Of a stretch of 64,000 nt of DNA, positions 29,631-52,666 are shown in pieces. The stretch comes from an uncultured bacterium. GTDB lineage: Bacteria > Calescibacteriota > Calescibacteriia > Calescibacteriales > Calescibacteriaceae. Position 1 is the stretch's first letter; each line of letters begins with the position of its first letter. The notes under the pieces were generated by a model that had not been told where the DNA came from, searched no databases, and saw only the letters and a program-made list of their open reading frames with translations. The translations under genes were made by a program, and so were the position numbers. Where the stretch lies: NCBI GenBank assembly GCA_938036315.1, contig CALHPK010000003.1, forward strand, positions 1 through 64,000, written 5' to 3'.

Positions 29631-31454
29631 ATGACGGGGTTAAAAAAGTACTGGGGTTATTTAGGAATAGGGATAGGTATTATACTCTTTTTAGCTTGTG
29701 GTGGTACTGACGACCAACAACCTAAGATGAAGTTCCCGACTGGTGAATTAATAGCGCTTTCGGTCTACGGAGAAAGAGGTTTTACAGACTATAAAGTGTA
29801 TTTCAGAGGATGGGAAACAGATACCCCTCAAACAGTATTCATTACGGATTCAAAGAAGGAAACCACATATGGTTCTGCTTATGTTCTTCCAGTAGAACTT
29901 GTAAAGAGTGTATGGGGAGATAGGCTTCCGGAGCTTTATCATTTCACACCTCAGCCCGATGGGACAATAAACGTAGATGAGAAAACAACAGCACTTTATC
30001 TTGTTATGGTTGCACCTCCATATTTTTGGATGTTTACACCACGGGCTATCGTTTTTGCAGCGGGGCATATAATCCAACATCCTGAGTTCAAAACTCTATA
30101 CCAGAAAGTCGCAGAAGTAAAACCAGGAGAACTCCTAACAGAAAAATCCTCAAATATATTCGCACTTGCCTCGAAAATAGCGGAAGACGTAAGGGAAAGC
30201 TTGCTACCTGCTAAAGCAACACCAAGACTTCAACCTGAGTTGGAAGCTGGAGAAGACTGTGTCAACAGCAGAGTTGCTAAAATAATGGGAGGAGGAGGAA
30301 CAATAAAGTGGAAGGTCAGACATATGATATTTTATGGAATAGGATTCTATAGAGGTTTTGAGATCACAAACGACAAAACTCCAGTGAAATATGCTGTATC
30401 AAAGGCTCAGTATGGAAAAATAGATCTCTCCCTTGACAATATATTGTCATTCAATATATTCAACCCAGAGGAAGAGTTCGGCGTTGACCTTCCCGAGCCT
30501 AAAAGAGACCCGTACGGAATAAGGTGGGAAAAAGGGATAGAACTGAGCACCTCGGTATTTACAAATCCGGTAAAAAGAGTAGGTTTAATCGCAAATTTTG
30601 GAAGAGCAGTAAAGTACACAGTTGAGATAGTGGTTCCTAACATTGCAGCGTGTATCCCAGATGGCGATACCTGGGGATGGGTAGTCGCTACTGCCCAAAA
30701 TCTCCTGACAGGCCAAGAAGAACTTACTCTCAAGTCAATATTTGCGTCAGGAGCATGGGATGAAGCCCTAAACCTGATATCTCAACTCTTTCAAGGTTCA
30801 TTCCTGTCTAACCTGCTAAGTAAGTTTGGGTTCAGCGGATGTGGGTATGGAGTTAACTTTATTATAAATCAGATAGCAGCAACTATAAGGAATTTTCCAC
30901 TTGTTAAACTATGGGATGCCTTTACAAGATACATACCATTTGGGATAGAACTTTTCACAAGACCCAAGACAGCATATTTTAGAGCCTACAATGGACAGCC
31001 TATGCCGGCAGAGTCCCCTGTTCTATCTCACTTCCCTCAGAGCACCTCCTCACCTGGATATATGAAGCTATCCGTACTTCCATACGGATGCGATAGATTT
31101 AACTGCGCAATAAGAATAAATTGTGGAGATGAAAAAGGCCTGTATGAGAAAAGCTTCAGGACCCCTCCCGGAACTTGTGAGTATGAATTAAATTTACCTC
31201 TGCCCCCGGGGTTTTATGGACAAAGCTGTATACTATCACTAATATTCAACAACAATGAGGAAACTAGCAGGAAAACTATATCTATATCCAATTGTCCAAC
31301 CTGTCCAGTTCCTTCTATGGGGGGCAAAGGCGGAGCGCAAGAGGAAGGTGGATGTAGTTCTGCCCCTGTACATAGCCCATACTTTGTATTTGCTATAGCG
31401 ATAATCTTCATACTCAAAGCTGCAAGACAATACTACAAAGAAGAAAGAAACTAA
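29631..31454 (+). CDS. Predicted lipoprotein with a C-terminal tripartite sorting-type signal
   Basis: A 607-residue protein of unknown family. The N terminus has a hydrophobic leader and a lipobox-like FLAC (Cys 23). The C terminus has three parts: GGC at 573-575 after a Gly/Glu linker, a hydrophobic helix (about 584-597) and a basic end (KAARQYYKEERN). This layout resembles the C-terminal signals removed by rhombosortase or myxosortase in other diderm bacteria (GlyGly-CTERM, MYXO-CTERM). A Cys-rich stretch (CPTCPVPS) lies just before. Start supported by AGAGAGG upstream. A 160-nt promoter-sized gap precedes it. Both ends may therefore be membrane-processed. Confidence 0.68.
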   Translation: MTGLKKYWGYLGIGIGIILFLACGGTDDQQPKMKFPTGELIALSVYGERGFTDYKVYFRGWETDTPQTVFITDSKKETTYGSAYVLPVELVKSVWGDRLPELYHFTPQPDGTINVDEKTTALYLVMVAPPYFWMFTPRAIVFAAGHIIQHPEFKTLYQKVAEVKPGELLTEKSSNIFALASKIAEDVRESLLPAKATPRLQPELEAGEDCVNSRVAKIMGGGGTIKWKVRHMIFYGIGFYRGFEITNDKTPVKYAVSKAQYGKIDLSLDNILSFNIFNPEEEFGVDLPEPKRDPYGIRWEKGIELSTSVFTNPVKRVGLIANFGRAVKYTVEIVVPNIAACIPDGDTWGWVVATAQNLLTGQEELTLKSIFASGAWDEALNLISQLFQGSFLSNLLSKFGFSGCGYGVNFIINQIAATIRNFPLVKLWDAFTRYIPFGIELFTRPKTAYFRAYNGQPMPAESPVLSHFPQSTSSPGYMKLSVLPYGCDRFNCAIRINCGDEKGLYEKSFRTPPGTCEYELNLPLPPGFYGQSCILSLIFNNNEETSRKTISISNCPTCPVPSMGGKGGAQEEGGCSSAPVHSPYFVFAIAIIFILKAARQYYKEERN

Positions 31455-48233: not shown

Positions 48234-48989
48234 TTATTCTGCTGTGGGGATATCGACAATTTCTGGCTGAGATGGTAGCGAAAAAGCTCCTGATTCATCC
48301 TCATACCAAACCTTCCAGAAAAATCTAAGTGAGTACTTGTTGAGCGTCATAGCTTCCGGGAAAAACTTATTTTCCTTTACTTTTATATAGAAGATTGGCT
48401 TGAGAAAATCTCTGTCTAAAGCAAATTCTAACATATAGTGTACTGACTCATTTCCCCGCTCCCAAAAGAATATAGGGATATAGAGCTTTTGCCCTGCCCT
48501 CGGAAATACAAGCTGAACGGACTTTTTCATCATATAAATGTATCCTTCAGCTGGAACGAACCCCTGTCCTTTTTTTATCTTTATCCCATCAGCTTTTACT
48601 TCGCCATCCAATACTTCTACTCTCAGCTTCTCATTGCTAATTCTCAACAGAACTTTAGAATTCTCAATTATAAATGTCTTACCCCTGACAAATTCAAAAA
48701 CACAATTATCAGAGTACAAAAGTACTGTTCCGCTAAAATTATCTAATATTACATAAGGCTTTCCAATATAGATGAAAGCAGATTTGAATTTAACTGAACT
48801 TTGGGGATATAACTTAATCACACAACTACCATATATAGATGGAAAGGAAATAACCGTTACTCCTTCATCGACTGAAACTCCCTTTGGATATTCGGAGAAA
48901 TTTCCATATGAAAAATAGACATTGTAATCAATTTTCTTTTTGCAACTAAAAGAAATAAATACAAATATGAGAGGAACGATCTTTTTCAT
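48234..48989 (-). CDS. FecR-like lipoprotein
   Basis: A 251-residue protein with a short signal and Cys 16 (FISFSC), probably lipid-anchored. Residues about 55-150 follow the FecR beta pattern: a LYPQSSVKFKS strand, ENSKVLLRISNEKLRVEVLDG, then GEVKADGIKIKKGQGFVPAEG. The C-terminal 95 residues look like a fibronectin-type module (VQLVFPRAGQKLYIPIFFWE, then FFWKVWYEDESG). Such FecR proteins sit in the envelope with peptidoglycan- or OmpA-type partners. It overlaps the upstream OmpA-domain gene by 4 nt and is translationally coupled to it. The frame continues open past the stop (see the spacer). Confidence 0.75.
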   Translation of the reverse strand: MKKIVPLIFVFISFSCKKKIDYNVYFSYGNFSEYPKGVSVDEGVTVISFPSIYGSCVIKLYPQSSVKFKSAFIYIGKPYVILDNFSGTVLLYSDNCVFEFVRGKTFIIENSKVLLRISNEKLRVEVLDGEVKADGIKIKKGQGFVPAEGYIYMMKKSVQLVFPRAGQKLYIPIFFWERGNESVHYMLEFALDRDFLKPIFYIKVKENKFFPEAMTLNKYSLRFFWKVWYEDESGAFSLPSQPEIVDIPTAE

Positions 48990-51900
48990 TTTTTAAAGAA
49001 GACCTTAATCTCAACTCTTCTATTCCTGAACTTTAAAGAATCATCTGATGTTTCTTCAATTGGGAAGGAATCTCCATATCCCACTATCTTGAATGGGAAT
49101 ATTACTCCTTTGTTGATTAGGAATTTCCTTACAGACTCAGCACGCTGGTAAGATAACTCAATATTCCACAAAAACTTACCTATATCATCAGTATGCCCCT
49201 CGATTATTATCTCAGATATATTTTCAATATTATTTTTTATAAATTTCACTGCATCCTCTAAATCCACATATTTTTGCGGCGGAATAGATGCAGAACCGAG
49301 CTGGAAGGAATCTATAACTTTTTTAAAAACTATGTTTCCCTCGGCTGAGTAAATGCTAAAAGGCCTAACCGGGAATGATTTCCTAAGTTCTTCATCTACC
49401 TTTGCTAAATCTCCTGAACTGAAACTACTACTAAGCTTCTCTCTACGCTGTATCATTTTTTTAGATAAATCCTTTTCATTTTCGTCTTCGCTTAACTTGC
49501 TCGGCTTATATTCCTTGCCTTCTTCGATGTCTTGTCTTTCACCCTCTGACTCAACGGCAAAAGTTTTCTCAGTTGGTCCGCTTATCTTTTCTGATTTGGC
49601 ACTCTCATTTGACATAGTGTCTTTTTTCTCCTCAATTTTCGTCCAGCCCTGAGTACTCCGCCCGATTCCTAACCACAAAGCGAAACCATCGGAAACATTC
49701 ACTGTGCGCGAAAGCTCACTGACTCTGATCTCGTATTCTTTACTTCCTTCAAGTGTAACATAATAGGCTGAAATATTGAAAGTTTTCCCATCAAAAGATA
49801 TACTCATATCTTGCTCAATAGGAACCCCGCTTCCATCTGATGAATAAAGAACGAGAAGAGAAGATGATCTGCGAACTCTCACTTGTAAGTCCGGATCAGC
49901 AGGAGATACCCAAATCTTCTGGTTCATAAAACCGTCACAAATAAAACTTGCCTCATAAAAACCATAAGGAAGTTTCAGCTCAAATATTCCATCCTTTGCT
50001 TTGTAAGACAAAAAAAGTTTTTCAATAATTATGTTGCAACTTGAAACCTGATTTCCAAACTCATCCACTATTTTCCCTCTCAATTTGAAATACTTGATGT
50101 TATGATTACTTCGAGGATTAAAATTCAATCCAGCTGAGAACATAATTCTAAAATCTGCAGAGCCTAGTCCACCTATAATCCCTTTGCTTCCCCCCACTTT
50201 CAAGAATATATCTTCTAAATCAACCCCGGCTAACAAAGATGCCTCACTTGCTACAAATCCTCTTTTTACAGCTATAGGGAGAAAAGAAAAATTCTCAAGA
50301 GAAAGGAAAAACATTCGAGAAATACTCAGGGTATGTCCGAGTGAAATCAGTAATCTAAAGGGAATGTCCTTACCCCCATAAATAACCCCCGAATTAATAG
50401 ATGTCTGACCTTTAGATATAATGAGGATAGCCCCACCAGAAAAAGGAGTACTTTCCAAATATCTTTTATTTCCAGTTGGGAGACCTAAAAACAATTCAGA
50501 ACCAATCTCATATCTTCCAGCATTACCAATCAACCCTTTCATACCTAAGAAAGTATCCATCAGATGAAGACCTGAATACTCTCCACGAGTATAAGCCATT
50601 GCAGGTAAAAGGTAAAACTCCGTTGAGTTATTTAGTGAGTATATAAAAGCTGGATTTGACACAATAACGTAGTCAAAAATTTTTCTCCTATAAACTTCTG
50701 AATCAAATTTGTAAGCAGTTTCAAACAGCGGAGAATACAGATATGAGCTGATAAATCCGAACTTAAAATTTCCCTCAGGGGAAGTTTGAATTGATCTTAC
50801 AAAGAAGAATTTGTCATAAGAATTTGGTAAGCTTACTATGCTAAATGTGTATCCATAATCGTGTAAAAAAGTTATTACTATGATAATTATCAATAATTTT
50901 GTCAATTTTCTGAGAACCACCAATAATAATATAAGGATAAAAGCCCCAGCAAGTGCGTACAAATGTTGAAGCTCTACTGATATACATCCCCCGCCCCTGT
51001 AAACAATCTCCGGAACTTTGGATCTCCCATACAATATCAGAGTGATTTCTCGATTCGATGGGTCATCAGACAGAATTTTGAGAACCCCCCGAATTTCTCC
51101 CGATTTTCCATTCGGGACAAAAGAAACTTTAATAGGATATGCTCCCCCAGGCGGAATGCTCACAATCTCATCAGATAGTATAAAATTTTCTGAATCAACA
51201 TAAAAGTTAGCATTGAGAGTAACTGTTCCGGTATTCTCCACAGAAAAAGATCGAGAAGAAGAATCATCTGACCAAACATCTCCAAAATCAATAGTTTGTT
51301 CTGCTTTAGAGAGCTTGATGCGAGGATATCCTCCCGCCCCATACAACTTTACCTCAAATATCTTAGATTCCACATTTCTGTACTCATCGAATGAAAAGTT
51401 AGACGAATTCGGAACTACAAAATATAACCTCAAAACAGCGGAATACTCCGTCACATCTTGGGGACTAAAAACCAGAGGGATGGTCACTGGACTTTCATAC
51501 AAGATAATACGAGGTAGCTCAAAATTTAGTGTCAAATTGAAAACCTGATCACCTGAGAGAGATATCTGAGAAATCATAACAGGGAACAAACCAGAATTTA
51601 CGATTGATAGATCTTTTTTGCTCTGATAATAAACTCTTATTCTTTCAAAATTTATACTTTCTGGAACAGATATATTGGGTTTTGATGCTTTGCCAGAGAC
51701 AGAAACTTTCACATAGGTTTTATCTGGATCGTTCGATTCTATATTGATATATGACTGGAAAGACCCTTCCTTCTCTGGTATGAAGAATAATTGAAATTCT
51801 AACTTCTTCATAGGTTCTACAACAAAAGGGAACGTTATCGACTCAATGTAAAAAGCCTGCGATTCAGAACTGATTCTTTTTATAATGAGATTCTCCGCTC

Positions 51901-52666
51901 CGACATTGGAAATAACAAAGCTAAATCTTGACGACTCATTTGGGAATATAGTCCCGAAATCTATTACCGTATTTTGCAGATACAATGACGGAAAAGGGTT
52001 TTTGACACCATACCCCACAGCTGAAATCTTCAGCTCTCCGATGTTTGAAAAGAAAGTTATACTACCTGAGAAATTTCCTTCGGAAGATGGCGTGAATATC
52101 ACGGGCACGAAGAATTTAGATTCAGCATCGACTCTGAAGTTAGTGATTGTGATAAAAAATGGAGATACAAAATAAGTCTGAGTTACAATGAGAGGGAATT
52201 TTCCGAAATTCTCAATCTGAACAAAAATAGTTTTGCTTTTGCCAACAAGAGTCCCCCCAAAATCAATGTTTGATGGGAGCGAGGGAATTGGCGAAGCCCA
52301 CACTCCAGAAATAGTAATAGAAAGCGTATAGCTATCAGAACCACTTCGTAAATTTATAGCTAAATTGTAAGTGAATTCTGAATTCAAAGCTTTAGACTGC
52401 ACAACAATTTTACTTGAACACCTGATTGAGCTTAATTGAGGAACATAATTTAGCTCACAGCTTATGTTCTGATTCTCCACTGTGAATGTGGCTGAGCTAG
52501 AAAAATTTATAATCGTGAAATCAATCTTAGGATCATCCTGAATAAATACATATCCAAGATTTATAATTTCTGGATCAACTTTAATGTTGCTCGAAAAGAC
52601 ATTTTTGTTGTATGATAGTATCAAGAGTGCTCCAATTATCGTAAAGATACTTAACTTCTTCACCAT
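48986..52666 (-). CDS. ASH-repeat / beta-barrel / OmpA-domain envelope protein with an internal sorting-type signal
   Basis: A 1226-residue ORF. A signal peptide (about 1-25) precedes five ASH (Hydin/choice-of-anchor D) beta modules (about 28-120, 127-215, 220-325, 330-445, 450-555; each begins with an I-x-F/L-G-type strand such as INLGYVFI, NIDFGGTLVG, VIDFGTIF). Residues 558-585 are GGGC, a hydrophobic helix and LRK, like a MYXO-CTERM tail. A second signal-like segment follows (TTG at residue 588, then TKLLIIIIVITFL), then a barrel-like region (about 610-850), a carboxypeptidase-regulatory-like module (about 860-935), a charged linker (about 1009-1075) and an OmpA peptidoglycan-binding domain (about 1105-1226; EGHTDDIG, NRRVEIKV). 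Either a fusion of two proteins, or two products from one ORF. Confidence 0.75.
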   Translation of the reverse strand: MVKKLSIFTIIGALLILSYNKNVFSSNIKVDPEIINLGYVFIQDDPKIDFTIINFSSSATFTVENQNISCELNYVPQLSSIRCSSKIVVQSKALNSEFTYNLAINLRSGSDSYTLSITISGVWASPIPSLPSNIDFGGTLVGKSKTIFVQIENFGKFPLIVTQTYFVSPFFITITNFRVDAESKFFVPVIFTPSSEGNFSGSITFFSNIGELKISAVGYGVKNPFPSLYLQNTVIDFGTIFPNESSRFSFVISNVGAENLIIKRISSESQAFYIESITFPFVVEPMKKLEFQLFFIPEKEGSFQSYINIESNDPDKTYVKVSVSGKASKPNISVPESINFERIRVYYQSKKDLSIVNSGLFPVMISQISLSGDQVFNLTLNFELPRIILYESPVTIPLVFSPQDVTEYSAVLRLYFVVPNSSNFSFDEYRNVESKIFEVKLYGAGGYPRIKLSKAEQTIDFGDVWSDDSSSRSFSVENTGTVTLNANFYVDSENFILSDEIVSIPPGGAYPIKVSFVPNGKSGEIRGVLKILSDDPSNREITLILYGRSKVPEIVYRGGGCISVELQHLYALAGAFILILLLVVLRKLTKLLIIIIVITFLHDYGYTFSIVSLPNSYDKFFFVRSIQTSPEGNFKFGFISSYLYSPLFETAYKFDSEVYRRKIFDYVIVSNPAFIYSLNNSTEFYLLPAMAYTRGEYSGLHLMDTFLGMKGLIGNAGRYEIGSELFLGLPTGNKRYLESTPFSGGAILIISKGQTSINSGVIYGGKDIPFRLLISLGHTLSISRMFFLSLENFSFLPIAVKRGFVASEASLLAGVDLEDIFLKVGGSKGIIGGLGSADFRIMFSAGLNFNPRSNHNIKYFKLRGKIVDEFGNQVSSCNIIIEKLFLSYKAKDGIFELKLPYGFYEASFICDGFMNQKIWVSPADPDLQVRVRRSSSLLVLYSSDGSGVPIEQDMSISFDGKTFNISAYYVTLEGSKEYEIRVSELSRTVNVSDGFALWLGIGRSTQGWTKIEEKKDTMSNESAKSEKISGPTEKTFAVESEGERQDIEEGKEYKPSKLSEDENEKDLSKKMIQRREKLSSSFSSGDLAKVDEELRKSFPVRPFSIYSAEGNIVFKKVIDSFQLGSASIPPQKYVDLEDAVKFIKNNIENISEIIIEGHTDDIGKFLWNIELSYQRAESVRKFLINKGVIFPFKIVGYGDSFPIEETSDDSLKFRNRRVEIKVFFKK

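Follow-up and report, generated by a model that had tools for sequence, protein, structure and literature searches.

An uninterrupted Calescibacteriaceae reading frame joining an adhesin-like half to a TraB-type barrel and OmpA domain across an internal sorting signal: a possible precursor of two envelope proteins

The closest described systems come from Myxococcus xanthus. The MYXO-CTERM tag of TraA is cleaved by the myxosortase MrtX, although a part of TraA still arrives at the surface when MrtX is missing (Guo, Haft, Wall 2025, PMC11980579), and traA and traB, which overlap by 4 bases, are both required for outer-membrane exchange (PMC3325183). A further M. xanthus protein, MXAN_5598, has its MYXO-CTERM inside the chain, with an adhesin before it and a barrel-OmpA part after it, like TraA plus TraB, and its N-terminal part was proposed by the authors to be processed and surface-anchored (PMC11980579); besides that paper, a literature search found MXAN_5598 named in a vesicle study only. 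According to the work that PMC11980579 cites, an LPXTG signal has been reported to function at a non-C-terminal position, and an ArtA (archaeosortase) tag to function away from the C-terminus (Abdul Halim et al. 2017).

The two-in-one idea is thus already known from MXAN_5598, and the ORF described here is a divergent variant of it outside Myxococcota. It lies in a 64,000-nucleotide stretch of DNA from an uncultured hot-spring member of the Calescibacteriaceae (the window, meaning the whole stretch analysed). The initial annotation had read it as a single ORF made of two envelope proteins, an anatomy that our analysis bears out, as the frame is 1226 codons long, free of stops, and each part could be located:

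48986..52666 (-), complete ORF of the precursor, 1226 aa and a terminal stop, otherwise stop-free; each of four relatives has a single-ORF orthologue
52589..52666 (-), N-terminal signal peptide, residues 1-26, boundary approximate (KK, hydrophobic core and FSS, judged by eye)
51011..52588 (-), adhesin-like half with ASH / choice-of-anchor-D / HYDIN-type Ig repeats, residues 27-552 (NF012200, PF22544, PF15780)
50984..50995 (-), GGGC motif, residues 558-561, proposed lipidation/cleavage site of a MYXO-CTERM-like tag (invariant G-x-G-C in family and paralogue)
50906..50956 (-), tag helix 1 and basic R586-K587, residues 571-587 (hydropathy; low-confidence AlphaFold2 helix)
50840..50905 (-), second signal-peptide-like segment, residues 588-609, with a possible signal peptidase I site TFS/IV (small-x-small aligned in all relatives)
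50111..50839 (-), outer-membrane beta-barrel, TraB-type / COG4313-like by comparison, residues 610-852 (hhalign, AlphaFold2, Foldseek)
49667..50095 (-), periplasmic beta-sandwich-like stretch, residues 858-1000 (AlphaFold2 strands, pLDDT mostly 56-84)
49322..49666 (-), charged low-complexity linker, residues 1001-1115 (family identity 14-25%; AlphaFold2 pLDDT <50)
49019..49306 (-), OmpA peptidoglycan-binding domain, residues 1121-1216, with EGHTDD and SYQRA (PF00691; Pal and OmpA structures)
48234..48989 (-), downstream gene, 251 aa, with a lipobox-like ISFSC and a 4-nt overlap with the stop of the precursor ORF

Pfam and NCBIfam scans assign the N-terminal half to the choice-of-anchor D / ASH type (NF012200, E 1.3e-32, 112.5 bits against a cut-off of 45) and resolve four separate choice_anch_D stretches in it, so that the previously annotated beta repeats stand but not their clean number of five. 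The features typical of TraA, a PA14-like domain and Cys-rich repeats, were not found in this half by domain scans, which returned ASH/choice-of-anchor-D-type repeats alone. At the other end, one OmpA domain (residues 1121-1216, PF00691, E 5.3e-14, 52.8 bits against a gathering score of 27.2) confirms the earlier assignment. The orthologues L002-L005 have about 100 extra N-terminal residues, forming an additional beta domain, relative to residues 1-66 of the window protein. The downstream 251-aa gene is kept in three of the four relatives at 38-39% identity and has no Pfam match; it is a probable operon partner of the precursor ORF, and this lipoprotein-like product may be a third partner of the two precursor halves.

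The junction reads ..EIVYRGGGCISVELQHLYALAGAFILILLLVVLRK|LTKLLIIIIVITFLHDYGYTFS|IVSLPNSYD.., and the GGGC lies at residues 558-561, where it had been placed before, with the hydrophobic stretch at about 571-585 and R586 and K587 after it. The three elements of a tripartite sorting signal, a Cys motif, a helix and a basic cluster, are therefore present as GGGC-helix-RK, although 639 residues lie C-terminal of the RK and the tag is consequently not at the extreme C-terminus. Residues 588-609 (LTKLLIIIIVITFLHDYGYTFS), beginning at a TTG codon (50903-50905) with GGTGG 11 nt upstream, do resemble a second signal peptide, as the initial annotation had it. The G-x-G-C is invariant in five of five orthologues and in the paralogue, within surroundings of 34 residues that are just 18-26% identical; the Lys at the cytoplasmic end of the tag is invariant in the five orthologues, and every orthologue has a small-x-small motif after helix 2, followed by the start of the barrel (TFS|IV, ALS|LN, SYS|LN, SWA|LN, SLA|LN). 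The window tag was unmatched by the curated models TIGR03901 and TIGR03382, with no NCBIfam match at E values up to 10. AlphaFold2, run on residues 553-1226, draws the junction as a single continuous helix at low confidence, too poor to be read for topology.

A long ORF of this kind could in principle arise when a sequencing indel in AAAATTGA removes a stop, as a TGA overlaps in another frame and a one-nucleotide slippage would place it directly after the LR codons, overlapping the TTG. However, a search across whole genomes recovered a full-length homologue, encoded by one stop-free ORF, from each of the four genomes of the same family (Candidatus Calescibacterium sp. SKYB43, Ca. C. nevadense, Bacterium HR19 and a bacterium MAG; 34-36% identity), which refutes a stop-loss because the relatives share the uninterrupted ORF. 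Furthermore, two close relatives (84% aa identity) differ across the junction by no indel, with a dN/dS of 0.29 and a dS similar to that of the rest of the gene. Frameshift and assembly error are ruled out along with stop-loss by the uninterrupted ORF and the indel-free junction; the same unbroken frame in five independent genomes and in a paralogue, together with purifying selection across the junction, makes the sequencing artefact scarcely credible.

The paralogue, which this genome also encodes (G000:C1, 2248 aa), and its counterparts in three relatives have a matching layout with GGGCSCS or GSGCSCS. All five Calescibacterium-group genomes retain the fusion together with the GxGC, the helix and its basic residues, helix 2, the small-x-small, the barrel and the OmpA domain, so the relatives combine the uninterrupted fusion with the retained motif; two separate genes, which the initial annotation had suggested looking for in close relatives, occur in none of the four and are found instead in other genomes, as described below. 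The gene-fusion reading of the initial annotation, with a sorting signal inside the ORF, is supported by both the family-wide layout and these adjacent pairs. Among the ORFs of at least 600 aa in 98% of the genome, an internal Cys-motif helix hairpin between two large exported-type regions occurs in this ORF only; two others that passed the hairpin filter are without the Cys motif, and the paralogue escaped the filter and was detected by homology.

Alternatively, translation could begin internally at TTG588 and yield a separate C-terminal half, a reading that would fit the GGTGG 11 nt upstream and the 4-nt traA/traB overlap in M. xanthus (PMC3325183). Against this, the 70 junction codons of the Ca. 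C. nevadense orthologue hold no ATG, GTG or TTG, and the GGTGG is not conserved among relatives and is simply coding sequence for Leu-Val-Val. The internal start near 50905 that had been suggested is thus unsupported, and we consider it very improbable.

The barrel-like region of the initial annotation is backed by both structure prediction and homology. AlphaFold2, given five sequences, predicts a beta-barrel of 15 strands (mean pLDDT ~70, pTM 0.66), for which Foldseek ranks 4rl8, a COG4313 outer-membrane channel, first among solved structures (E 5.7e-4; TM a modest 0.47). A comparison by hhalign with barrels from other-genome proteins whose best NCBIfam match is TraB (NF033763, 117-312 bits) gave a probability of 96.7% and an E value of 3.6e-10 over 241 columns. 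Some of these comparison barrels also match PF13557, which is presumably associated with COG4313 and would then agree with the 4rl8 match. In G182 and G184 the TraB match spans the full length; these scores do not reach the 700-bit cut-off, nor does that of the C-terminal half of the window protein, at 39.4 bits on the OmpA part alone. A five-member profile search for the barrel outside the family, across 386 genomes, returned weak matches only, and the homology is clear only through profile-profile comparison. Judged by that comparison the C-terminal barrel is homologous to TraB-type barrels, and the order of barrel then OmpA domain (PF00691) is shared with TraB.

Large OmpA-bearing ORFs were inspected in other genomes, and the same layout was found there both fused and split. 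Three fused proteins have a clear tag: G032 (3001 aa; GRGC..GRRARR..LVAPAARA|QAP), contig C5 of G272 (L266; 1032 aa; SCSLNP..FRKKK..SPAKA|LDV) and G291 (8019 aa; DCTLNP..DRRRR..GNAHA|Q). The internal tag of G032, probably a myxobacterium, passes the MYXO-CTERM model TIGR03901 (20.1 against 20), and all three genomes have a myxosortase (Mrt) above the cut-off (G032 141.6, G272 134.6, G291 104.9). Two more fused proteins, G037:C15 (L084; 3336 aa) and G182:C68 (L267; 896 aa), have doubtful tags with a weaker Cys context; the G182 protein carries a CarboxypepD_reg-like domain at the position equivalent to residues 858-1000. Split pairs occur in G272:C15 (L274; adhesin end GGCGCSIST..ILRRRTVKKH followed by a stop) and G184:C127 (L270; GCGGCSASS..VRRRRK followed by a stop), each with the barrel-OmpA gene directly downstream. 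In these pairs the latter gene has its own signal peptide and one or more stop codons divide the genes. Both forms coexist in G272. No tagged adhesin adjoins the barrel-OmpA genes of G032:C38, G037:C4/C5, G094, G250 and others checked. In L270 (2663-6856) the tagged adhesin and the barrel-OmpA gene are in frame with one stop between them, which may reflect readthrough, a recent fission or a pre-fusion state.

It seems probable to us that the ORF encodes a single precursor that is cut by a myxosortase-like enzyme at GGGC and by signal peptidase I after helix 2, giving two partner products. Both halves need export, and the chain would therefore cross the membrane twice, an arrangement that a stop-transfer tag with a second signal peptide behind it would provide. 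In this model, signal peptide 1 would direct the ASH-repeat half through Sec until helix 1 halts transfer, leaving GGGC periplasmic and RKLTK cytoplasmic, and helix 2 would then re-enter as a second signal peptide, so that both halves are exported. The myxosortase-like CPBP protease would cleave at GGGC, probably once the Cys is lipidated, and the adhesin half would pass to the cell surface, possibly via the type II system, whose secretin GspD was found above its cut-off (477 bits). Signal peptidase I, cutting after TFS (residue 609), would release the TraB-type barrel with its OmpA domain; the freed barrel would insert in the outer membrane and the OmpA domain would bind peptidoglycan. The two products would probably be partners, as the genetics of traA/traB suggests, supplied 1:1 from one chain.

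It is also conceivable, if fairly unlikely, that the protein stays whole or is partly processed, as an inner-membrane hairpin with both halves periplasmic that bridges the inner membrane, the wall and perhaps the outer membrane. The fusion is without exception in the family, and the two unrelated fused proteins of G037 and G182 occur in genomes where a profile search found Mrt absent, so the hairpin layout alone does not demand Mrt. Yet the C-terminal half is homologous to an outer-membrane barrel, which could not arrive there as long as a hairpin held it in the inner membrane and would need to be released; likewise, the signal-peptidase-like site on helix 2 is conserved and an equivalent layout exists elsewhere as two separate proteins. 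The G037 and G182 proteins themselves may have a different sorting enzyme or be unprocessed hairpins.

The case for the first of the two proposed cuts draws on the rest of the genome. A census of tags covered 1.83 of 1.87 Mb, read as stretches, and a heuristic filter (exported, a single C-terminal helix, a basic tail) gave 17 C-terminally anchored candidates. A Cys stands just before the helix in 13 of them, against 20% of random windows (binomial P 8e-7), and in nine of these 13 tags the Cys comes as GC; a few of the 13 (e.g. C6:13827) may be chance. Examples of tags are ..VFGCSSSSAAGIPSLGLMILLFGFVSAILKSRKR and ..KFGCSVSGFGYLIFISALPLILLLRKRKKKVF, each followed by the stop, and, within the window, the ..EEGGCSSAPVHSPYFVFAIAIIFILKAARQYYKEERN end of the ORF at 29631-31451(+). 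This last ORF encodes a 607-aa lipoprotein-like protein with a lipobox-like FLACGG, is 48% identical to G000:C26:6954-8861, and is odd in combining an N-terminal lipobox with the Cys-helix-basic C-terminal end. The products of G000:C1:202135-207798, C6:185735-187666 and C25:48716-49936, the last of which extends to the contig end, form a multi-copy tagged family with near-identical C-termini (TSQTDQTEFTSDQDQ..TSKFGCSVSGFGYLIF..LLLRKR).

A candidate enzyme is the sole Rce1/CPBP protein of the genome, G000:C6:54932, which has the CPBP motifs EE...R, H and H...N and whose best family matches are the myxosortases Mrt_core, MrtP, MrtC and MrtX. Its Mrt_core score of 86.9-87.9 bits (E 8.8e-25) lies under the cut-off of 100, and Mrt_core is matched exactly once in each of the five family genomes, at about 88-99 bits. 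Exosortase and rhombosortase were rejected as the enzyme, as no exosortase was found in this genome and rhomboid matches were only at the level of control genomes. Together, the tags and the protease point to a putative myxosortase-type sorting system in Calescibacteriota.

These scores also bear on a reading in which signal peptidase I cuts alone, with the N-terminal half left anchored in the inner membrane or leaving with its helix uncut, and GGGC lipidated or structural. In its favour, every relative keeps the second signal peptide and the small-x-small aligned after it, the Mrt scores lie under the curated cut-off, and TraA is partly at the surface in the mrtX mutant (PMC11980579). We nevertheless think it unlikely, given that GxGC is invariant within a fast-evolving stretch and that the genome combines a Cys-tag repertoire with a single Mrt-like protease. 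The cleavage into two proteins raised in the initial annotation thus gains indirect support from this repertoire, the myxosortase-like protease, the signal-peptidase-like site and the MXAN_5598 precedent.

Compared with known systems, the window ORF resembles MXAN_5598 in having an adhesin half, an internal tag, an outer-membrane barrel and an OmpA domain in one ORF, a likeness drawn from the published description. It differs in coming from outside Myxococcota, in its ASH-repeat adhesin, in a tag that falls outside the MYXO-CTERM model and in its neighbourhood, which for MXAN_5598 is ftsA/ftsZ. With TraA/TraB it shares a surface protein tagged by Cys, helix and basic residues and an adjacent barrel-OmpA partner, the barrels being homologous by profile; TraA and TraB, however, are two genes, TraA has PA14-like and Cys-rich repeats in place of ASH, and outer-membrane exchange is known for them. 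The split pairs of G272:C15 and G184:C127 likewise have a tagged adhesin and then a barrel-OmpA protein, differing in the stop codon(s) between them. The archaeosortase substrate with the non-terminal tag is similar in that a tripartite signal is reported to be processed though non-terminal, as cited in PMC11980579. It belongs to Archaea, and its enzyme and motif are unrelated. It is not known to have a barrel-OmpA half. By the curated cut-offs the window protein is neither a MYXO-CTERM protein nor TraB, but we judge it reasonably likely that it works like those systems.

What the locus adds is a family-fixed fusion outside Myxococcota, a divergent tag and protease, the homology to TraB-type barrels and the alternation of fused and split forms, which turns what had been a remark on one M. 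xanthus protein into a pattern that reaches beyond Myxococcota. A whole deep-branching family has the arrangement as a fixed feature, a paralogue repeats it, and other lineages carry it fused or split. A more general proposal, for and against which we hold the case to be evenly balanced, is that TraA/TraB-like pairs have repeatedly become one precursor across phyla, which myxosortase and signal peptidase I would convert into one surface lipoprotein and one outer-membrane protein at 1:1, with fusion and fission occurring freely as the junction consists of opposite-facing export signals. Bacterial polyproteins that are split into two different envelope proteins are rare. If the model is true, two unrelated proteases would mature one chain and fix a 1:1 supply of both products, and the protein would offer a compact substrate for questions about myxosortases, namely what enzyme attaches the lipid to the Cys and whether a tag inside the chain suffices.
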